A stretch of DNA of 64,000 nt from Burkholderia sp. Bp8992. Lineage in GTDB: Bacteria > Pseudomonadota > Gammaproteobacteria > Burkholderiales > Burkholderiaceae. The stretch lies in assembly GCF_003853705.1 (NCBI RefSeq), contig NZ_QTQI01000024.1, positions 62,001-126,000 of the forward strand, in the 5' to 3' direction. A program made the translations under genes and the position numbers. Each line of letters begins with the position of its first letter. Positions within the stretch are counted from its first letter, which is position 1. Under the pieces are notes generated by a model. It was given only the letters and a program-made list of their open reading frames with translations, ran no database searches and had not been told where the DNA came from. Shown one piece after another: positions 26,001-34,793 of the stretch.

Positions 26001-26029
26001 GCATGACCGGTCGAGCGGGCCGGTCATGC
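26001..26029. terminator. Inverted repeat between convergent plc and racemase genes
   Basis: Perfect 10-bp arms GCATGACCGG and CCGGTCATGC separated by 9 bases. It sits at the junction of two convergent genes and overlaps the racemase stop codon, so it probably acts as a two-way transcription end even though no T-run follows. Confidence 0.55.
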
Positions 26030-27490
26030 TGCCACGCCGGCCGCGGCGGCATAGGCGATGCATCGACGTGCCAACACCTCGGTCGGATCGACAAGCGTTG
26101 CCCGAACGCCGTTTCGCGAAACGTACTCCGTGCCGGGCAACAGGATCGGAAGCTCGGTACACCCAAGCAAGATCACTTCGACGCCGTCGGAAATCAATCC
26201 ATCGACCGCCGCCTTGATGTCTTCTTCACATTGTCCCGTCGAGAAACCCGCCTTGACGCCGTGCCTGCCGTAAATCGCTTCCATCACGCGCGCCTGCAAC
26301 TCGGGCCCCGGCGCGACTTGCGTGAGCCCCTGCGCGTCGAGCGCCTTCTTGTACACGCCGCTCTCGATCGTCCCGGACGTTGCCAGCACGCCAACCGCTC
26401 GCAGCGCCGGGTAGGTCTCGCGCAGATGAGCGACCGTGACCGTCAGCATGTTGACGATCGGGATGCCGAGCCAAGGCTGAATGCGCTCCACAAATGCATG
26501 GGCAGTGTTGCAGGGGATCGCGATGACGTCCGCGCCTCCGTCCTCGAGCTTCTTGCAGGTCGAGTACAACGAAATCGTAGGGTCCATGCCGGCGCCGACG
26601 AGATTTTCCGTTCTATCGGGAATTTGCGGGTTTTGCTCGACCAGCAGCTTGATATGGTCCTGATCGCGCGACGCCGGCGTGTTGCGCACGATCTTGTTCA
26701 GAAAATCGACGGTCGCAGCCGGCCCGACGCCGCCGACGACGCCGACCTTGAACGTCGGCGCGCACGAACCGCCCGGCGCCGAAACGGCGTACTGCGCGTA
26801 CACCAGATTGGAATCGATCAGCGGCACGCGCTGCGGGCCGAGCGTGTCCGCGACAAGTGCGATTTCCGTCAGGGCCGGGACGATGACCTGCGCCCCCTGA
26901 TCCGTCAGGTCCTCGCACGCAGCGCGCAGTCGTTCGACCGGCCGCCCTCGGAGGTTGCCGCGCTTGATCCCGTCCGGCCCGTAGATCGCGTCGGTCACGG
27001 GATCAATTTCGCCCTGCGCCCGCGGATAGAGGATCTCGAACCGCGGTGAAGGAAAGTACGTCTCGAACAATTTCTTTCCGCGTACATAGTCCGAAGCCAT
27101 CACGCCAATGCGGGTAACGCCGGGGAACGTTTGCCGCACGTAGGTGCGAAGCGCGTCGACCATGTCGACGATCGGCAGCCTCGTGTTCGCCTTCAGTTCA
27201 TCGATAAACGTATGGCTCAGAAAGCATGGGAGCACGACGGTCGTCACACCACGCTTCTCGAACTCGCGGATCATGTCGAACACATAAAGCTTGCGCTCCG
27301 TCGTGGCGGCGCTGCTCGATCCCGAGCCATTGAAGGGGCGCTGCTCGAAAATCATGTCGGCATGCTCATCATCGGACGACGCGGCAGCTGCCTTCACCAT
27401 CTTGAAGAACACGTCGGCGCTTCCGAGCGGACCAAGACCGCCGACGACGCCGAACTTCCGCCGAGCGGCCACGGATTCGGGGTGTTTCAT
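26024..27490 (-). CDS. Tandem two-domain aspartate/glutamate racemase family protein
   Basis: 488-residue protein made of two copies of the Asp/Glu racemase fold. Such PLP-independent enzymes use two cysteines to invert an amino-acid alpha carbon. Domain 2 (about 247-480) keeps both: IPCNTAH (C327) and LLGCTELP (C444). Domain 1 (about 12-235) keeps VLPCFLSH (C89), but the second site reads IVPALTEI, with L207 where the cysteine belongs. Single-domain homologues are about 230-240 aa, so this is a fused duplication with one crippled or repurposed half. Start at 27490 overlaps the symporter stop by 4 bases; D-/L-aspartate or glutamate taken up by that symporter is the natural candidate substrate. 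Confidence 0.88.
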   Translation of the reverse strand: MKHPESVAARRKFGVVGGLGPLGSADVFFKMVKAAAASSDDEHADMIFEQRPFNGSGSSSAATTERKLYVFDMIREFEKRGVTTVVLPCFLSHTFIDELKANTRLPIVDMVDALRTYVRQTFPGVTRIGVMASDYVRGKKLFETYFPSPRFEILYPRAQGEIDPVTDAIYGPDGIKRGNLRGRPVERLRAACEDLTDQGAQVIVPALTEIALVADTLGPQRVPLIDSNLVYAQYAVSAPGGSCAPTFKVGVVGGVGPAATVDFLNKIVRNTPASRDQDHIKLLVEQNPQIPDRTENLVGAGMDPTISLYSTCKKLEDGGADVIAIPCNTAHAFVERIQPWLGIPIVNMLTVTVAHLRETYPALRAVGVLATSGTIESGVYKKALDAQGLTQVAPGPELQARVMEAIYGRHGVKAGFSTGQCEEDIKAAVDGLISDGVEVILLGCTELPILLPGTEYVSRNGVRATLVDPTEVLARRCIAYAAAAGVAA

Positions 27491-28767
27491 GCGTTCAGCT
27501 CCGGCGGGTCGAAGGCGGCATTGCCCGGCACAGCCGACCGGTTGCCTTCCCACTTCGCGATCACGGCCGTCGCGACGCTGTTGCCGATGACGTTTGTCAT
27601 CGTGCGCCCCATATCGAGAAGCTGATCGATCGCGAGAACCATGGCGACGCCCGCGGCCGGCAGGTGAAACATCGGGGCCACCGCGGCCACGACGACAACG
27701 GATCCGCGCGGCACGCTTGCCATGCCCTTGCTGCTCAGCATGAGAATCAGCAGCATGACAATCTGTTGCGACAACGGCATGTGCACGCCGAAGGCTTGCG
27801 CGATGAAGATCGCTGCGAACGCCTGATACATCATCGAACCGTCGAGGTTGAACGCATAGCCCAACGGAAGCGTGAACCCGACCACCTTCTTGTCGACGCC
27901 GAACTTCTCCAGTTGTTCGGTCAGGCGTGGATAGGCAGCCTCGCTGCTCGCGGTGGAGAAGGCGATCAATGCGGGTTCGCGCACGGCTTTCAGCAGGCCG
28001 ACGACGCGTCGCCCAAGAAATGCATAACCGATACCGACCAGGATCGCCCAAAGGACGAGCAAGCCGAGATAGAACGCGCCGATCAGCTTGCCGTACGTGT
28101 AGATCACATCCAGGCCGCGAAGCGTGACCGCCGAAGCGATCGCGCCGAACACGCCGAGCGGCGCCGCTCGCATCACGTAGTTAGTCAGGCGCAACATCAC
28201 CGGCACCAGCCCGTCGATTGCCTGGATCACGACGCCGACCCGCGGGTCTTTCCTGAGTGCGCTCAGCGCGATGCCAAGGAATACCGAGAATACGAGGATC
28301 TGGAGAATGTCGTTGCGTGCCATCGCATCGAGCAGGCTGGTCGGGAATGCGTGCGTGATCACGTCCCGTGCGTTCAACGCTGCCGTATTCAGCCCCGTGT
28401 TGACCTCCGCGGCGGAGTCCGTGAGATGAAGACCGGCTCCCGGCTCCAGCGCATTGGCCATGACGAGCCCAAGGCCCAAGGAAATCAGCGACGCGCAGAT
28501 GAACCAGCCGACCGAACGAAAGCCGATCCGGCCGACGTCGTCACCGCTGTCCATCCCGGCCAGGCCCGAAACGAGTGTGGCGAAGACCAGCGGCGCAATG
28601 ATCATCTTGATCAGCCGCAGAAAGATGTCCGTCACGATCGAAAAGTAACCGGCGACCGCTTTGAGCGTACCGGGATCGGCGAGGTTCTTGTGACACACGT
28701 AGCCGGCAACGACACCTAGAACCATGCCGGCGGCGATGTTGAGAGTGAGGCGATTTTTCATGTCCAT
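27487..28767 (-). CDS. Dicarboxylate/amino acid:cation symporter (DctA/GltP family)
   Basis: 426-residue inner-membrane transporter for C4-dicarboxylates or acidic amino acids with H+ or Na+. Features: about eight transmembrane helices, FLRLIKMIIAPLVFATLVSGLAGM, the serine-rich hairpin FSTASSEAAYPRL, NLDGSMMYQAFAAIFIAQAFG, SSKGMASVPRGS and DRGRT-like DMGRTMTNVIGNS. The tandem ATGs at 28767 and 28761 are both possible; an AAGGA site 9 bases before 28761 favours the second. It overlaps the racemase start, so transport and racemisation are coupled. The upstream gap carries a long inverted repeat (28906-28930). Confidence 0.93.
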   Translation of the reverse strand: MDMKNRLTLNIAAGMVLGVVAGYVCHKNLADPGTLKAVAGYFSIVTDIFLRLIKMIIAPLVFATLVSGLAGMDSGDDVGRIGFRSVGWFICASLISLGLGLVMANALEPGAGLHLTDSAAEVNTGLNTAALNARDVITHAFPTSLLDAMARNDILQILVFSVFLGIALSALRKDPRVGVVIQAIDGLVPVMLRLTNYVMRAAPLGVFGAIASAVTLRGLDVIYTYGKLIGAFYLGLLVLWAILVGIGYAFLGRRVVGLLKAVREPALIAFSTASSEAAYPRLTEQLEKFGVDKKVVGFTLPLGYAFNLDGSMMYQAFAAIFIAQAFGVHMPLSQQIVMLLILMLSSKGMASVPRGSVVVVAAVAPMFHLPAAGVAMVLAIDQLLDMGRTMTNVIGNSVATAVIAKWEGNRSAVPGNAAFDPPELNA

Positions 28768-28905
28768 TCGTCCTTGGAGGGCGCCGGGCGGCCGAAGCCT
28801 GCGGGGCGCTGGGAATGGGCTCAAATGACGCCGGCCGGACGTCACAATTGCCGCTGGAACGAATGGTAGGGAGCGTCAATAAAACCGTGATGCCAGTGCA
28901 TCATG

Positions 28906-28930
28906 ATCGTATGCGAGATTCGCATACGAT
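28906..28930. promoter_or_regulatory. Perfect 11-bp inverted repeat upstream of the symporter operon
   Basis: ATCGTATGCGA-GAT-TCGCATACGAT, 11-bp arms around 3 bases, 139 bp before the symporter start and 10 bp after the lysR stop. It has no T-tract on either side, so an operator (for the adjacent LysR protein or another dimeric regulator) is more likely than a terminator. Confidence 0.55.
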
Positions 28931-28939
28931 GGGAAAACC

Positions 28940-29854
28940 CTAGCCGAGCCGCGGCGATGCCGAACGGAGGTGCTGCCAGAGCGTGTCCAGGAATTCGCTG
29001 CGGTTGGAGACATCGCGATAGACGCGCAGCTCGACTTCGAGATGCCACGCCGCCGGCCCGGCAGGCACGAGATCGCCGGTTTCCAGCTCTGCGGCGATCG
29101 AACTCCTGGGCAGCCACGCGACGCCCTCGCCCGCCAGCACGAGCTTCTTCAACACTTCGGCCATGTCCGACTCGTAGTGCAGCTGCAATACGGGTGTTCC
29201 GGGCGCTCGGGTGAGCAGCAACGCAAGACAACGTCCGAAGTAGCTGGTGTCCGTATACGAAATGAGCGGCAGCGGAACCTGCTTCGTCCCCGGCAGGCGA
29301 AACATGGGCGCCGAGCGCCGGTTCGGCCTGCACGCGGGCATCAGCGTATCGATACCGACGGTCACGTGCTCGTATCGGCCAGGGTCGAGATGCAACGGCA
29401 GTTCGGGATGGTGATAGGCAAACATCAGCTCGCAGTTCCCGTTGACGAGCATCAGGATCGAGTCGTGCACGTTGGTTGGAATGACGCGCGCCCGAACTTC
29501 TCCGAAATGGAGCGCAAGCGCCTTGAGCCAGCCGGGCAGAAAATTGAGCGCGATCGTGTGGCCGGCCGCAATCTGCAGACTCTTGCCGGCGATTCGTTGC
29601 TCGGTGCGAATGATGGCACGCGTATCGAACAATCGGCTGAGCACGTCTTCAGCCGTCTCGCGAAACAGTCGTCCGGCCGGCGTAAGCACCGGCGGGAAGC
29701 TGCTGCGATCGATCAGCTCCGCGCCGATCCACTGCTCGAGCGACTGGATTCGGCGACTGAAGCCCGACTGCGTGACGTTGCGAAACTCCGCGGCGCGGGA
29801 GAAGCTCTGGTATTGCGCGAGGGCGATGAAATCCTCGATCCACTTGATTTCCAT
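28940..29854 (-). CDS. LysR family transcriptional regulator
   Basis: 304-residue regulator with an N-terminal winged helix (MEIKWIEDFIALAQYQSFSRAAEFRNVTQSGFSRRIQSLE, cited in part: SRAAEFRNVTQSGFSRRI) and a periplasmic-binding-like effector domain from about residue 90. The recognition segment QSGFSRRIQ is close to the YjiE/HypT-type subgroup. Co-oriented with and immediately upstream of the symporter-racemase operon, which it probably controls; an acidic amino acid would be a sensible effector. Confidence 0.92.
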   Translation of the reverse strand: MEIKWIEDFIALAQYQSFSRAAEFRNVTQSGFSRRIQSLEQWIGAELIDRSSFPPVLTPAGRLFRETAEDVLSRLFDTRAIIRTEQRIAGKSLQIAAGHTIALNFLPGWLKALALHFGEVRARVIPTNVHDSILMLVNGNCELMFAYHHPELPLHLDPGRYEHVTVGIDTLMPACRPNRRSAPMFRLPGTKQVPLPLISYTDTSYFGRCLALLLTRAPGTPVLQLHYESDMAEVLKKLVLAGEGVAWLPRSSIAAELETGDLVPAGPAAWHLEVELRVYRDVSNRSEFLDTLWQHLRSASPRLG

Positions 29855-29937: not shown

Positions 29938-30858
29938 TCAATGCGCTGCACCGAACAGTCGAATCACGACGCCGCGCAGCCACCGGTTGCCGGCCTCATG
30001 GTGATAGCGCGCATGCCAATGCTGCCGTACCGCGAAACCTTCGACCGGAATCGGGCATGCATGAACCGCCAGATCGCCGGCATGAGCCAGCGTCTCGCCG
30101 ATGTGCCGCGGTAGCGTCGTGATCAGGTCGGTCGTCTGGACGATCGCCCCCAAACCCAGGAAACCCGGCAACTCCAGCACGATGTCCCGCTCGATGCCCG
30201 CCTGCCGCAACGCCTGTTCGAGGAGTTGCGCCCCCGTCCCCCCCGTGATGGCGACATGTCCTTCGGAACGATACTGCTTTGCCCCGAGACGACTACGGAT
30301 CCTCGGGTGATGCCGGTTCGCCAGACAGACCCAGTCCTGGTCGTACAGCTTCTGCTGATAAATGCCGCCGCCCAGCCATGGCACATAGCCGATCGCGAGA
30401 TCGGCTTCGCCGGATTCGAGCGCGCGTTCCGTATTGCCGTCGATCCGTGCGGCTTCCAGCCGGACACCGGGCGCCTGCGCCCGGACATGGGCCAACAGCC
30501 GCGGCAGCAGCGTGATGTGGCTCGCATCGGTCATGCAGATGCGAAAGCGCCGCTGCGCCGTCGCAGGATCGAACGCGATCTCCCACGCGGTGAAGCGCCG
30601 CAGAGACTCGAGAATTTCCCGGCAGGGCCCGATCAGCGCGTCGGCCTGCGGCGTCGGCGCCATGCCGCCGGGTGTCCGGACGAAGAGCGGATCGTGCAGG
30701 TATTCCCGCAGGTGCCCGAGCCAGATACTGACCGTCGGCTGGCTCTGGCCCAGTTGCTCGGCCACGCGCGTGACGCTGCGCACGTCGTACAGGAGATCGA
30801 AAAGCTGAAGCAGCTTGAGGTCAGGCAGGTCGGCGGGCATCGTCACGTTATTGTCCAT
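29938..30858 (-). CDS. LysR family transcriptional regulator (NahR/NodD-like subgroup)
   Basis: 306-residue regulator. Start at 30858 (MDNNVTMPADLPDLKLLQ). The helix-turn-helix spans about 16-70 (LLQLFDLLYDVRSVTRVAEQL, GQSQPTVSIWLGHLREYLHDPLFVR); the DLKLLQLFDLLY start and DPLFVRTPGGMAPTPQA are typical of the NahR/NodD/DntR branch that controls catabolic operons. It is divergent from the five-gene operon starting at 30940, with only 81 bp between them, and is the likely activator. A perfect palindrome lies directly before its start (30861-30874). Confidence 0.94.
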   Translation of the reverse strand: MDNNVTMPADLPDLKLLQLFDLLYDVRSVTRVAEQLGQSQPTVSIWLGHLREYLHDPLFVRTPGGMAPTPQADALIGPCREILESLRRFTAWEIAFDPATAQRRFRICMTDASHITLLPRLLAHVRAQAPGVRLEAARIDGNTERALESGEADLAIGYVPWLGGGIYQQKLYDQDWVCLANRHHPRIRSRLGAKQYRSEGHVAITGGTGAQLLEQALRQAGIERDIVLELPGFLGLGAIVQTTDLITTLPRHIGETLAHAGDLAVHACPIPVEGFAVRQHWHARYHHEAGNRWLRGVVIRLFGAAH

Positions 30859-30860
30859 GG

Positions 30861-30874
30861 CAATGACGTCATTG
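30861..30874. promoter_or_regulatory. Perfect 14-bp palindrome in the lysR/panE-like divergent promoter
   Basis: CAATGACGTCATTG reads the same on both strands. It begins 3 bases before the lysR start codon and lies 66 bp before the TTG start of the divergent operon, followed by an AT-rich stretch (ATTGTATCCATTGTATTGTGAA). The location fits LysR autorepression or activation; binding is inferred. Confidence 0.5.
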
Positions 30875-30939
30875 TATCCATTGTATTGTGAATATGAACG
30901 ACGACTCCTATCGTGAAGCCAACCATCGAGGAGACACCG

Positions 30940-31890
30940 TTGAAAATTGCAATTCTGGGCGCTGGCGCACTGGGCTGTGCGATCGGCGCCGCCCTCACCC
31001 AAGGCGGCCATGAGACCTGGCTGATCGGCCGCTCGCCCGCGCACGTCGACGCGATGAACCGCGACGGCCTGCGCGTCGACGACGCGGGCGGCACCCGCCA
31101 GGTACGCGTGCACGCGACGACGCAGGCAGCCGAAGTCGGCACGGCCGACGTGGTCGTGGTGCTGGTCAAGTCGTTCCACACCGACGCTGCGATCCGCGGC
31201 GCCCTGTCGCTGGTCGGGCCCGATACCGTCGTGCTGTCGCTGCAGAACGGCCTCGGCCACGAGGACATCCTCAGCGACGCCGTCGGCCGCGAGCGCGTCC
31301 TCGCCGGCAAGACTTACGTCGGCGGCGTGCTGCGCGGCGCGGGCCATATCGAATCGGGCGTGATCGGCAAATACACCTATATCGGCGAACTCGACGGCCG
31401 CATCACGCCGCGTGTGCAGGCGATCGCGGACGCGTTCAATACGGCCGGCCTCGCGACGACGATCAGCGACAACATCGTCGGCACCATGTGGGACAAGCTG
31501 CTGGTGAATGTCGCGACCGGCGCGCTGACGGGCCTGACCGGCCTCACCTACGGGCAGCTTTACGACGAGCCGCTGCTGAAGGCGACGGCGCTCGCCGCGG
31601 TCGCCGAAGCGATCGCGGCGGCGCAAGCGGCCGGCGTCAAGCTGTCGATGACCGATCCCGAACAGGCATGGACGCTCGCCGCGGAGGGCCTGCCCGCCAC
31701 CTTCAAGACCTCGATGCTGCAGAGCCTCGAGAAGGGCTCGATCACCGAGATCGACTTCATCAACGGTTCGGTCGTGCGTGCCGGACAGCGCTACGGCGTG
31801 CCGACGCCGGTCAACGCCACGCTCGTCGCCTGCGTCAAGGGGCTGGAGCGCGCGATGGCCGATCGCCAACGCGAGGAGGCTGCCGCATGA
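30940..31890 (+). CDS. Ketopantoate reductase family NAD(P)H-dependent reductase (PanE/ApbA-like)
   Basis: 316-residue cytoplasmic oxidoreductase reducing a 2-keto acid to a 2-hydroxy acid (or the reverse). The Rossmann motif LGAGALGCAIG lies at the N-terminus; VVLVKSF, LSLQNGLGHED, GTMWDKLLVNVATGALTGL and TSMLQSLEKGSITEIDFINGSVV (in part) are standard PanE features, with the catalytic Lys in WDKLLVN. The TTG at 30940 is preferred because GAGGAG lies 7 bases before it and it places the Rossmann motif at residue 4; a GTG at 30913 would add 9 residues. The catabolic neighbours make pantothenate synthesis unlikely. Confidence 0.85.
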   Translation: MKIAILGAGALGCAIGAALTQGGHETWLIGRSPAHVDAMNRDGLRVDDAGGTRQVRVHATTQAAEVGTADVVVVLVKSFHTDAAIRGALSLVGPDTVVLSLQNGLGHEDILSDAVGRERVLAGKTYVGGVLRGAGHIESGVIGKYTYIGELDGRITPRVQAIADAFNTAGLATTISDNIVGTMWDKLLVNVATGALTGLTGLTYGQLYDEPLLKATALAAVAEAIAAAQAAGVKLSMTDPEQAWTLAAEGLPATFKTSMLQSLEKGSITEIDFINGSVVRAGQRYGVPTPVNATLVACVKGLERAMADRQREEAAA

Positions 31891-32279
31891 GCGCCACGAA
31901 AGCCTATCTGGAACACGTCGCGATCTGGGTGAAGGATATCCACTGGCACATCCGCTTCTTCGAGGACGTGCTCGGCATGCCCCTGCGCGAAGTGGACGGC
32001 ACGCTCGACGCGCCGCGGCAGTACTGGACGCTCGGCGGCCTGCAGTTCATCCACGCGCCGGAACACGAAGGCCCGGAAGGCCGGCTCGCCCATCTCGGCG
32101 TGATGTGCGAAGACCTGGAGGCCGCGCTGGCTGCGGCACAACGATTCGGCGTGACGGAGATGCCGCAGGGGCGGAACTGGATTCGCCTGCCCGACGGGCT
32201 TGCCGTCGAACTGATCCAGGCCAGACCGGCTTCCTGCGTTGCGCAGGCGCTGGCCATCAATCCGCGCGCGGAGGCGTGA
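31887..32279 (+). CDS. VOC (glyoxalase/dioxygenase fold) family protein
   Basis: 130-residue protein with two beta-alpha-beta-beta-beta modules. The start overlaps the upstream stop (ATGA). Candidate metal ligands are H10 (LEHVAIWV), H68 or nearby (RLAHLGVMC) and E in LAVELIQ, the normal spacing of VOC metal sites. Members act as glyoxalases, epimerases, extradiol dioxygenases or resistance proteins. In this operon an isomerase or lyase role on a CoA-linked or hydroxy-acid intermediate is possible but unproven. Confidence 0.82.
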   Translation: MSATKAYLEHVAIWVKDIHWHIRFFEDVLGMPLREVDGTLDAPRQYWTLGGLQFIHAPEHEGPEGRLAHLGVMCEDLEAALAAAQRFGVTEMPQGRNWIRLPDGLAVELIQARPASCVAQALAINPRAEA

Positions 32280-32281
32280 AC

Positions 32282-32740
32282 ATGACGATCGTCGAAAAAT
32301 ACTGGGACGACGCCCGCGAGGGCGACGTATGCACGAGCCCGAGCTACATCGTGACCAAGGCGCGCATTCTCGCGTATGCCGATCTCACCGGCGACCATAC
32401 GCCCGTCCACGTGGACGAGGAATACGCGAACGCGAGCCATTTCGGCTGCCTCGTCGCGCACGGGCTGTTCGGCCTGTCCATCGCCGACGGCCTGAAGACG
32501 CAGAGCGACTACCGCTTCCTGCCCGGCATGTCGCTCGGCTGGACGTGGGACTTCGCACTGCCGATCAAGGTCGACGACGTGCTTCACGTCAAGTTCCGCG
32601 TCGGCTCGATGCGCGCCAGCAAGAGTCGCCCGGGTTGGGGCATCGTGGTGCTGCCGTCGGAGCTGATCAATCAGGACGGCCAGGTCGTTCAACACGGCGA
32701 ACATCGCCTGATGGTGCCGCGGCGCCCGGAGGCCCTGTAA
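32282..32740 (+). CDS. MaoC-like hydratase/dehydratase
   Basis: 152-residue single hot-dog-fold enzyme of the R-specific enoyl-CoA hydratase class. The hydratase-2 motif appears as YADLTGDHTPVHVD, with catalytic D38 and H43; the usual Asn of GDxNPxH is Thr. The protein would hydrate an enoyl-CoA or dehydrate a 3-hydroxyacyl-CoA. It starts 2 bp after the VOC gene stop and overlaps the CoA-transferase start by 1 base, so it is tightly coupled to CoA chemistry. Confidence 0.88.
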   Translation: MTIVEKYWDDAREGDVCTSPSYIVTKARILAYADLTGDHTPVHVDEEYANASHFGCLVAHGLFGLSIADGLKTQSDYRFLPGMSLGWTWDFALPIKVDDVLHVKFRVGSMRASKSRPGWGIVVLPSELINQDGQVVQHGEHRLMVPRRPEAL

Positions 32741-33960
32741 TGCAGGCTCGCCCACTCGAAGGCATTCGCGTCGTCGACTACAGCCATTTCCTTGCCGGTC
32801 CGTATGTCGGTCGCTGTCTCGCCGCGCTCGGCGCCGAAGTCATCAAGGTCGAGCGCCCCGGCTCCGGCGACGCCGGACGCCAGCACGCGACCGTGCTCGA
32901 CGACCAGCAAAGCGGCTACTTCCTCCAGCTCAACATGGGCAAGCGCGGCGTGAGCGTCAACATGAAGGACGCGCGCGGCAAGGCGTTCATGCAGCGCCTG
33001 TGCGACTCGGCCGACGTGTTCATCGAGAACTATCGGCCGGGCGCGCTGGACAAGCTCGGGCTCGGCTATGCCGAATTGTCGGCACGCAATCCGGGCCTCG
33101 TCTACTGTTCGATTTCGGCGTACGGACACACCGGTCCCGATGCGCATCGCGCGGGCTTCGGGCTGATCGCGGAAGCCAAGAGCGGCATCATGCAGATGGT
33201 GGGCACGCCGGGCGAGCGGCCGCCGCTGCTGCGCATCTCGCTCGGCGACATGTACACCGGCATTCATGCGGTCGCGGCCATCAATGCCGCGCTGCTGGGG
33301 CGCGTGAAGAGCGGCCGCGGGCAACACGTCGACATGGCGCTGTACGACACGCTGGTATCGATGCACGAATACGCGGTGCAGTGCTACACGCTGCAGGGCG
33401 TGCTGCCCGAGCAGACCGGGCACGACATGCCGACCTCGACGCTCTACGGCGTATTCCGTGCCGCGGACGGCGATCTCGTGATCGCCGCGCAGGTCGACGA
33501 CGCGTGGAAGCGCTTCGCCGGACTGATCGCGGCGCACGGCGGCCCGGCTGGCTTCGGCACCGACACGCGGTTTCACGACAGCACCGGACGCAACGCGCAC
33601 CGTGCGGAGATCCTGTCGGTCGTCGAGCCGTGGGTGGCCGCGCGTTCCGTCGCGTCGGTACTGGATCTGCTGGACGGGATCGACGTTCCCTGCGCGAAGG
33701 TGCAGCGCATCGACGAGGTATTGAACGATCCGCAGATCCAGGCCAGAGGCATGGTCGTCGAGCAACACCATCCGCGCTACGGGACACTGCGCCTGCCCAA
33801 TCTGCCGTTCCGGTTTTCCGATTGCGATACGACGATTCGCGACGTCGCGCCCGATCTCGGGCAGCACAACGCGGAAATCGCGCGCTCCCTCGGGTTCGAT
33901 TCGGCCGAAATCGATGCGATGCAGGCCGATGGCGTCCTCTATTCGAAGGAGAACCAATGA
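32740..33960 (+). CDS. Family III CoA-transferase (CaiB/BaiF type)
   Basis: 406-residue cytoplasmic CoA-transferase that moves CoA from an acyl-CoA donor to a carboxylic acid by a classical Asp-anhydride mechanism. N-terminal LEGIRVVDYSHFLAGPYVGRCLAALGAEVIKVE (in part) and the catalytic aspartate D170 in LRISLGDMYTG are intact, as are QHVDMALYD and VPCAKVQRIDEVLNDPQ. It activates the pathway acid so that the MaoC protein can act on it. It overlaps the upstream gene by 1 base (TAATG) and the next gene by 4. Confidence 0.94.
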   Translation: MQARPLEGIRVVDYSHFLAGPYVGRCLAALGAEVIKVERPGSGDAGRQHATVLDDQQSGYFLQLNMGKRGVSVNMKDARGKAFMQRLCDSADVFIENYRPGALDKLGLGYAELSARNPGLVYCSISAYGHTGPDAHRAGFGLIAEAKSGIMQMVGTPGERPPLLRISLGDMYTGIHAVAAINAALLGRVKSGRGQHVDMALYDTLVSMHEYAVQCYTLQGVLPEQTGHDMPTSTLYGVFRAADGDLVIAAQVDDAWKRFAGLIAAHGGPAGFGTDTRFHDSTGRNAHRAEILSVVEPWVAARSVASVLDLLDGIDVPCAKVQRIDEVLNDPQIQARGMVVEQHHPRYGTLRLPNLPFRFSDCDTTIRDVAPDLGQHNAEIARSLGFDSAEIDAMQADGVLYSKENQ

Positions 33961-34793
33961 TGACCGACCAATACGCGGTGATCGGCAATCCGATCGGGCA
34001 CACGAAATCCCCCCTGATTCACGGCCTCTTCGCACAAGCAACGCGGCAGGACATCGTCTATACGGCCATCGAGGGCCCCGTCGAGCCGGCGGGCGCCTTT
34101 GCTGCCGCGGTTCGTGCGTTTTTCGACGGCGGCGGCAAGGGCATCAACGTCACCGCGCCGTTCAAGCTCGACGCGTTCGCGATGTCGGACGAACGCAGCG
34201 AGCGCGCGCAGCTCGCGGGCGCGGCCAATGCGCTGAAGTTCGACGGCGGCCGCATCCTGGCGGACAACTTCGACGGAATCGGACTGGTTCGCGATATCGA
34301 AGCGAACCTCCATCTGCCGATGGCCGGCAAGCGCGTACTGGTGCTCGGTGCAGGCGGCGCCGCACGCGGCGCGCTGTTGCCGTTCCTCGAAGCCGGACCG
34401 GCCGAACTCGTCATCGCGAATCGCGACGTCGACAAGGCGCGTGCACTCGCCGCGCAGGTCGCCGGACGCGGTTCGCTCGTTGCCACCGGCTATGCAGACC
34501 TCGCGCGGATGGGGCGTTTCGACCTGGTCGTCAACGCGACGTCGGCCAGCCTGACCGGCGACCTGCCGCCGGTCCCGCCGAGCGTCTTCAGTCCGGCCGG
34601 CACGGCCTATGAACTTGCATACGGCAAGCGCCTCACGCCGTTTCTCCGGCTCGCGAAAAACGCGGGGGTGCACGGGATCGCGGACGGCGTCGGCATGCTG
34701 GTCGAGCAGGCGGCTGAAGCGTTCGCGTGGTGGCGCGGCATACGCCCCGAGACCAGCTCGGTGATCGACCGGCTGGCCGTGCCGTTCGATTGA
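33957..34793 (+). CDS. Shikimate dehydrogenase-like NAD(P) oxidoreductase (AroE paralogue)
   Basis: 278-residue AroE-family protein, last gene of the operon. It keeps GNPIGHTKSP (10-19), the catalytic lysine K70 in NVTAPFK, the nucleotide loop GAGGAARG (131-138) and DGVGMLVEQA. Several signature positions differ from biosynthetic AroE: HSKSP is HTKSP, GAVNTL is GAANALK, and the NTDG substrate loop is DNFDG (T to F at 105). These changes suggest it acts on something other than shikimate in the aromatic pathway, for example a quinate-like or other polyol acid. Starts with two ATGs at 33957 and 33960. Confidence 0.85.
   Translation: MMTDQYAVIGNPIGHTKSPLIHGLFAQATRQDIVYTAIEGPVEPAGAFAAAVRAFFDGGGKGINVTAPFKLDAFAMSDERSERAQLAGAANALKFDGGRILADNFDGIGLVRDIEANLHLPMAGKRVLVLGAGGAARGALLPFLEAGPAELVIANRDVDKARALAAQVAGRGSLVATGYADLARMGRFDLVVNATSASLTGDLPPVPPSVFSPAGTAYELAYGKRLTPFLRLAKNAGVHGIADGVGMLVEQAAEAFAWWRGIRPETSSVIDRLAVPFD

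Follow-up and report, generated by a model that had tools for sequence, protein, structure and literature searches.

Five tightly linked genes in Burkholderia sp. Bp8992 (contig NZ_QTQI01000024.1, positions 62,001 to 126,000; this stretch of 64,000 nucleotides is hereafter the window) form a genuine operon, not a chance or local arrangement, and the operon probably processes quinate- or shikimate-like plant acids via CoA intermediates. The genes encode, in order, a ketopantoate-reductase-like dehydrogenase (KPR), a single-chain VOC protein, a MaoC-type hydratase/dehydratase, a family III CoA-transferase (CoAT), and an AroE-like enzyme, i.e. one resembling shikimate dehydrogenase (SDH), of the Ael1 class. 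With moderate confidence, we take the operon to supply the CoA-dependent half of a peripheral module for the catabolism of polyhydroxycyclohex(en)e carboxylic acids of the quinate/shikimate type, which would be switched by a divergently transcribed LysR-family regulator. This assignment of the substrate class is based on the recurrent partners of the cassette, namely: a special type II 3-dehydroquinate dehydratase (AroQ), ShiA-like transporters, Gfo/Idh/MocA dehydrogenases, a second SDH and, in a few loci, QuiC.

Conservation of the cassette

The initial annotation of this DNA had proposed a comparison of gene neighbourhoods across Burkholderiales. We carried out this comparison, and the exact order KPR-VOC-MaoC-CoAT-AroE, on one strand, recurs in 103 of 111 loci from Burkholderiales, Pseudomonas and Bradyrhizobium. 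Since order and strand are the same in so many loci, the linkage is more than chance. The coordinates and spacings described for the window, where the genes are joined by overlaps of 1-4 bp or a gap of 2 bp, are borne out (Table 1), and 95 of the 103 ordered loci have a KPR-VOC overlap of precisely 4 bp. The 111 loci comprise the best 80 of 548 contig matches, 14 plasmid loci, the window and 16 Pseudomonas regions (L and G numbers denote the loci and genomes compared); L091 and L127 are the same place, leaving 110 distinct loci. They were selected via the operon DNA or, mostly, the AroE-like gene, such that loci with the other genes and no AroE-like gene would escape.

Among the 8 loci that lack the exact order, three lie at contig ends (L059, L072 and L086) and five were re-inspected. 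All five genes are present in L022, L115 and L121, where they had been missed or split by gene calling or clustering. In a Paraburkholderia symbiont (L066:7165-10837) the cassette is decayed: KPR, VOC and CoAT are fragmented and no MaoC was found, which is what one would expect if the catabolic set is dispensable. The fifth, L088, has Ael1 but no CoA genes.

The cassette is under purifying selection: dN/dS ratios between the window and three relatives range from 0.05 to 0.22 (18 comparisons, covering LysR and all five operon genes). Over operon and regulator, the nearest relatives among the genomes compared are Burkholderia stagnalis (93.7%) and B. ubonensis (93.5%). Megablast places the operon in 18 plasmid records, 16 of which cover at least 80% of its length.

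The cassette MaoC is a discrete orthologue group, scoring 309-326 bits against at most 120 for the next MaoC in a sample of 200 genomes from the family of a Burkholderia genome. It is present in 55 of these 200 genomes; 57 matched the profile, and G935 and G960 were dropped as they gave weak matches only. One genome, G904, has two full-strength copies on separate contigs (C60 and C6). The AroE-like gene was found in 17 of 199 genomes sampled from the genus of a Pseudomonas, and MaoC and CoAT adjoin it in 15/15 loci inspected from these 17 carriers. Both MaoC-found regions opened outside the main sample (L136 and L137) carry the whole cassette. A phylum-wide MaoC scan gave 6 matches in 398 genomes, two of them weak paralogues, while the class-wide scan (1/274, that one being the centre genome itself) is uninformative.

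Table 1. Features of the operon and its upstream region in the window.
Feature	Position	Strand	Remarks
KPR-like dehydrogenase	30940-31890	+	TTG start; TIGR00745 247 bits vs cut-off 141
Single-chain VOC protein	31887-32279	+	4-bp overlap with KPR; Pfam Glyoxalase_4 and Glyoxalase
MaoC-type hydratase/dehydratase	32282-32740	+	2-bp gap after VOC; Pfam MaoC_dehydratas
Family III (CaiB/BaiF) CoA-transferase	32740-33960	+	1-bp overlap with MaoC; Pfam CoA_transf_3 387 bits
Ael1-class SDH-like (AroE-like) enzyme	33960-34793	+	nearest solved structure 3pwz
LysR-family regulator	29938-30858	-	Pfam HTH_1 and LysR_substrate; divergent from KPR, 81 bp if the first ATG is used
Putative LysR-binding region	30850-30888	.	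ATTG-N7-CAAT at 30850-30864; 14-bp palindrome CAATGACGTCATTG at 30861-30874; more ATTG repeats to 30888

The AroE-like protein belongs with structure 3pwz

Among solved structures, the AroE-like protein of the window matches 3pwz best (361.8 bits, runner-up 254.4). Because identity to 3pwz is 64.5% for the window protein and reaches 91.5% among Pseudomonas cassette proteins, sequence comparison identifies 3pwz as this cassette's own enzyme and the AroE-like protein as its orthologue. We take 3pwz to be the founding structure of the Ael1 (AroE-like 1) class, from Pseudomonas putida. Ael1 has been studied as an isolated enzyme on shikimate, and is reportedly active on shikimate and not on quinate. 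The enzyme is the same here; the difference is that its operon partners place it in a CoA-linked setting, of which the matches listed in the open-access literature give no description. In the passages of PMC12383815 and PMC6009893 that concern P. putida SDH, inhibition is the only subject.

Residues K69, N90, D105, Y221 and Q250, among them the Lys/Asp pair, are kept in 111/111 copies of the protein. The substrate loop of biosynthetic AroE carries the canonical motif Asn-Thr-Asp-Gly, which is not found here: Phe (F104) replaces Thr in every one of the 111 copies, and T15 stands in place of Ser in 104 of the 109 copies that have a residue there. The view that the AroE-like enzyme is specialised holds. 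The AANALK motif pointed to in the initial annotation is ordinary, and the changes of note are T15 and, chiefly, F104. An Asn-Arg pair and a Lys, presumably the signature of an NADP site, are kept in 9/9 aligned Ael1 sequences. The start codon is either the ATG at 33960 or that at 33957, which would overlap CoAT by 1 or 4 bp, respectively.

The protein also passes the curated AroE model NF001310 (329.5 bits vs. 221). We discounted the possibility that it is no more than the biosynthetic AroE of the strain, as the cassette-bearing relatives carry both genes: a second AroE (242-286 bits) is present in 3/3 such genomes checked.

KPR, VOC, MaoC and CoAT

All six family assignments, i.e. the five genes and LysR, are above the Pfam cut-off, and all five cassette proteins look, from their residues, like working enzymes. 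In KPR, K186, N190, S258 and E270 are kept, and the position equivalent to N184 of the Escherichia coli enzyme is G194 in 105/105 copies; the Lys and Glu are presumably catalytic and N184 the substrate-binding Asn. KPR thus shares with ketopantoate reductase (PanE) its family and catalytic pair, but differs at the substrate Asn, and the operon holds no pantothenate genes, which agrees with the earlier suggestion of a PanE-like enzyme outside a vitamin context. KPR and the AroE-like protein both appear adapted to substrates other than the textbook ones.

The VOC protein has H10, Q53, H69 and E108 in 105/105 copies, a pattern that we take to be a metal-binding set like that of methylmalonyl-CoA epimerase. 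Its profile gives weak, mixed VOC matches in the PDB, with epimerases at E values of 0.046 and 0.076. MaoC retains D38 and H43 in 106/106 copies. D170 of CoAT, presumably the catalytic residue, is kept in 106/106 full-length copies (109 copies in all), and the best curated match of this protein, below cut-off, is succinate-glutarate CoA-transferase.

Model scores and gene content led us to reject the itaconate, mesaconate, carnitine and pantoate pathways. The CoA routes for itaconate and mesaconate (Ict-Ich-Ccl and succinyl-CoA:mesaconate CoA-transferase) resemble the cassette in pairing a family III CoA-transferase with a MaoC hydratase; however, the score against RipB/Ich is 48.6 bits vs. 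340 and that against mesaconate CoA-transferase 257 vs. 700, and the operon lacks a gene for the lyase (citramalyl-CoA lyase). CaiB of carnitine metabolism belongs to the same CoA-transferase family, which is able to swap CoA between substrate and product, but CoAT scores 142 bits vs. 413 with the L-carnitine CoA-transferase model and the other cassette enzymes are unrelated. The initial annotation had found no named pathway for the gene set. This still stands: among the matches listed in the open-access literature, a scope outside which most subscription journals lie, there is neither a description of the set nor the term shikimoyl-CoA or quinoyl-CoA.

A special AroQ and other recurrent partners

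AroQ is encoded directly downstream of the AroE-like gene in 50 of the 111 loci, its start lying anywhere from 4 bp upstream to 46 bp downstream of the end of that gene. It forms its own subfamily, with the motif LHG[IV]N in 60 of 63 copies at cassette loci versus LNGPN, the canonical motif, in ordinary enzymes; LNGPN is seen in L008. The catalytic residues of the special AroQ are intact in the aligned copies, the altered positions being H8, I10 and H12, and its representative scores above the cut-off for type II dehydroquinate dehydratase. In the 200-genome sample, the special AroQ is found in 35 of 55 genomes with the cassette MaoC vs. 4 of 145 others (P ~2e-20, a value inflated by species kinship). 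A weaker AroQ group (253-277 bits, and partial matches) was counted apart; with all matches included, the figures are 35/55 vs. 11/145. At L022, a 57-residue AroQ match is retained.

Among 18 genomes without AroQ near the cassette, seven have an intact special copy elsewhere, including G904, in which it adjoins the second cassette copy; the other 11 have only ordinary relatives, apart from an additional broken fragment in G1049. Of the 13 loci fetched at which the special AroQ is separate from the cassette, 12 contain a ShiA-like MFS transporter and 9 contain a Gfo/Idh/MocA dehydrogenase, while four fetched loci of the weaker AroQ group have a Gfo/Idh/MocA gene in one case and a ShiA-like transporter in none. 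A second SDH is found at 9 of the 111 cassette loci. The names ShiA-like, Gfo, SDH and QuiC denote family and not function, because the representatives all score below the curated NCBIfam cut-offs.

In Bradyrhizobium, the five genes run together with a second SDH, an ABC importer, an AroQ having the canonical motif and a Gfo/Idh/MocA gene, without QuiC; L136 is a second run of this type. Of 95 loci, 3 (L005, L082 and L089) have QuiC within the cassette cluster, and no QuiC match was found within the window. A full-length QuiC-like protein is nevertheless encoded in 37/37 cassette genomes searched (17 Pseudomonas and 20 of the other 55), compared to 19 of 27 controls (17/20 Pseudomonas and 2/7 others). 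Since such an outlet exists in every carrier searched, and in one carrier genome QuiC occupies its own standard cluster (L173), the cassette appears to supplement the standard quinate route and not to replace it.

Known quinate/shikimate catabolism to protocatechuate (quinate dehydrogenase, AroQ and QuiC) shares with the cassette loci its logic, AroQ where present (directly downstream in 50 of 111 loci, absent from the window), dehydrogenases of the SDH and Gfo/Idh/MocA types, ShiA-like transport and, in the few loci mentioned, QuiC. The cassette differs in adding CoAT, MaoC, VOC and KPR, in having mostly its own AroQ subfamily, and in the rarity of clustered QuiC.

A proposed CoA-linked route for hydroaromatic acids and its alternatives

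The initial annotation read the operon as a catabolic route through CoA thioesters. Such a route is probable; as for its substrate, the recurrent partners favour hydroaromatic acids of the quinate/shikimate type over the itaconate, citramalate, pantoate and sugar acids it had listed. From gene order, families, residues and co-occurrence, which are observed, we infer the substrate class as well as each reaction, its order and its direction. Rings of the quinate/shikimate type would be plausible substrates for the enzymes that act on the free acid, namely the dehydrogenase, AroQ and Ael1. In its full form, the pathway would begin with import of the acid by the ShiA-like transporter. A dehydrogenase (Gfo/Idh/MocA or the second SDH) would then form a 3-keto acid, the special AroQ would eliminate water, and Ael1 would perform a redox step of the shikimate/3-dehydroshikimate type on the free acid. 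CoAT would move CoA from another thioester onto the α,β-unsaturated acid, MaoC would add (or remove) water at C1-C2, KPR would oxidise or reduce the hydroxyl so formed, and the VOC protein would shift or epimerise at the acidic α-carbon. Finally, the ring would be opened, or the product released into the 3-dehydroshikimate/protocatechuate route.

We favour a CoA branch that consumes a shikimate-like acid over one that converts an unusual acid for use by the standard route, since shikimate, being α,β-unsaturated, lends itself to CoA loading and to hydration by MaoC, and since an NADP-type signature is retained in Ael1. A more specific version of this scheme is tentative: a CoA-dependent, non-aromatising breakdown of shikimate/quinate-type acids, in which keto-dependent dehydration (dehydrogenase, AroQ and Ael1) would be followed by CoA loading, MaoC hydration at C1-C2, KPR oxidation to a β-keto thioester and ring opening, with protocatechuate bypassed.

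Several observations weigh against the quinate/shikimate assignment. At the cassette loci themselves, ShiA-like transporters (18/111) and Gfo genes (11/111) are infrequent, and their representatives score 253 vs. 538 with the shikimate transporter model and 106 vs. 355 with that of inositol 2-dehydrogenase. There is no AroQ in the 64-kb window, and the special AroQ is not obligatory, given that 11 of the 18 genomes without a nearby copy have no intact one; conversely, the 4 MaoC-negative genomes noted above hold it. No ring-cleaving enzyme is constant among the cassette neighbours. At L088:1477-7567, Ael1 is accompanied by a second SDH and an apparent branched-chain-type ABC importer, but not by CoA genes, and so can be used apart from them. 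Genes of the tricarballylate type, tcuA and tcuB, adjoin the cassette in 4 of 95 loci (L003, L011, L046 and L077), together with a TcuC-like transporter. Furthermore, the contrast in QuiC between carriers and controls is weak: the protein exceeds the model cut-off in 17 of 37 carriers vs. 16 of 27 controls, and 17 of the 20 Pseudomonas controls have the full-length protein too. The cassette genomes hold a QuiC-type protein as well, and quinate itself may therefore bypass the CoA branch.

The presence of QuiC-like proteins in all carriers searched, and of QuiC near the cassette in three loci, is also what would be expected if the CoA enzymes worked in the supply direction, turning an unusual cyclohexane carboxylate into shikimate by carnitine-like CoA exchange with dehydration or epimerisation, and Ael1 then oxidised shikimate to 3-dehydroshikimate for QuiC and protocatechuate. 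That family III transferases include CaiB would fit as well. We consider this rather doubtful, as QuiC is also a feature of ordinary Pseudomonas, the presumed NADP-site residues of Ael1 suit reduction at least equally well, and we know of no fitting natural substrate.

Somewhat less probable still is recruitment of the AroE- and AroQ-like enzymes to a non-hydroaromatic substrate, e.g. a branched di- or tricarboxylic acid, such that the likeness to quinate metabolism would be ancestry only. The changed residues of AroE (F104), AroQ (H8, I10 and H12) and KPR (G194), the tcuABC neighbours and the top curated score of CoAT point in this direction; on the other hand, ShiA-like transporters, Gfo/Idh/MocA dehydrogenases, a second SDH and QuiC recur around the cassette, and the AroQ of the Bradyrhizobium run has the canonical motif. 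Lastly, the operon might be biosynthetic and channel 3-dehydroquinate or shikimate into a secondary metabolite for secretion. This would agree with the presumed NADP-type signature of the SDH-like enzyme and with the efflux-type MFS proteins of some loci (Bcr/CflA-like in 9 and DHA2-like in 9 of the 111, on models below cut-off), but is very improbable in view of the ShiA-type transporters and dedicated LysR, and because the neighbours include no constant synthase, ligase or tailoring enzyme.

The divergent LysR gene and the upstream region

A LysR orthologue is divergent from KPR, at most 170 bp from its start, in 82 of the 111 loci. The divergent arrangement described for the window holds, with the spacing as in Table 1; the label NahR/NodD-type is loose, as the top NCBIfam matches are BsrA (204 bits, cut-off 480) and then LeuO, both below cut-off. 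The intergenic repeats are a putative LysR-binding region, and several of their bases rank among the best conserved in 81 aligned upstream regions. With the start codon taken here, the LysR gene overlaps the ATTG-N7-CAAT element; for this reason, the true start may lie further into the gene.

Further upstream (window 26024-29854, - strand) are genes for a fused tandem Asp/Glu-racemase protein, which matches the cysteate racemase model in two stretches, a DctA-like transporter and another LysR protein. Only two more of the 95 loci (L065 and L093) again have these upstream genes, the racemase and LysR families at least, close to the cassette.

Other neighbours and a second cassette type

A crotonase gene lies directly behind Ael1 in 4 of 95 loci; in 6 Pseudomonas loci, AroQ is followed immediately by a DHA2-like MFS gene. 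Variovorax (L007:1675-4570) and Bradyrhizobium (L008:304-3199) have genes for an acetate-CoA-ligase-family protein and a crotonase close to the cassette; these may supply a later CoA step.

Eight paralogue loci were opened, and four of them (L140, L141, L144 and L145) combine a related but distinct MaoC (42-46% identical) with another SDH-like gene; the listing of the remaining four has no SDH-like gene. This second cassette type has a class I CoA-transferase in three of the four loci (L144 has one of family III, on the opposite strand), DUF993 in three (not L141) and a TIM-barrel protein in at least two; Pfam was run on L145, and the other loci were matched by resemblance of the protein starts. 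This type, which supports the logic of the proposed scheme, may serve a similar ring acid as a parallel CoA route.

Implications for hydroaromatic-acid catabolism

The families of the cassette are all known, while their combination and the link to hydroaromatic acids look new. Most likely, the cassette represents a variant of hydroaromatic-acid catabolism that is new. Plants contain quinate and shikimate in abundance, and the textbook bacterial route for these acids leads to protocatechuate. A conserved CoA-linked cassette would imply that there is another branch, or else a way of handling related acids that lie beyond the reach of the standard pathway. If this model is true, the automatic labels aroE, aroQ and panE mislead for these genes. 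In addition, the crystallised enzyme 3pwz, whose purpose has been unclear, gains defined partner genes that are present in Pseudomonas strains, a genus in which laboratory strains are readily knocked out, as well as a testable pathway setting.

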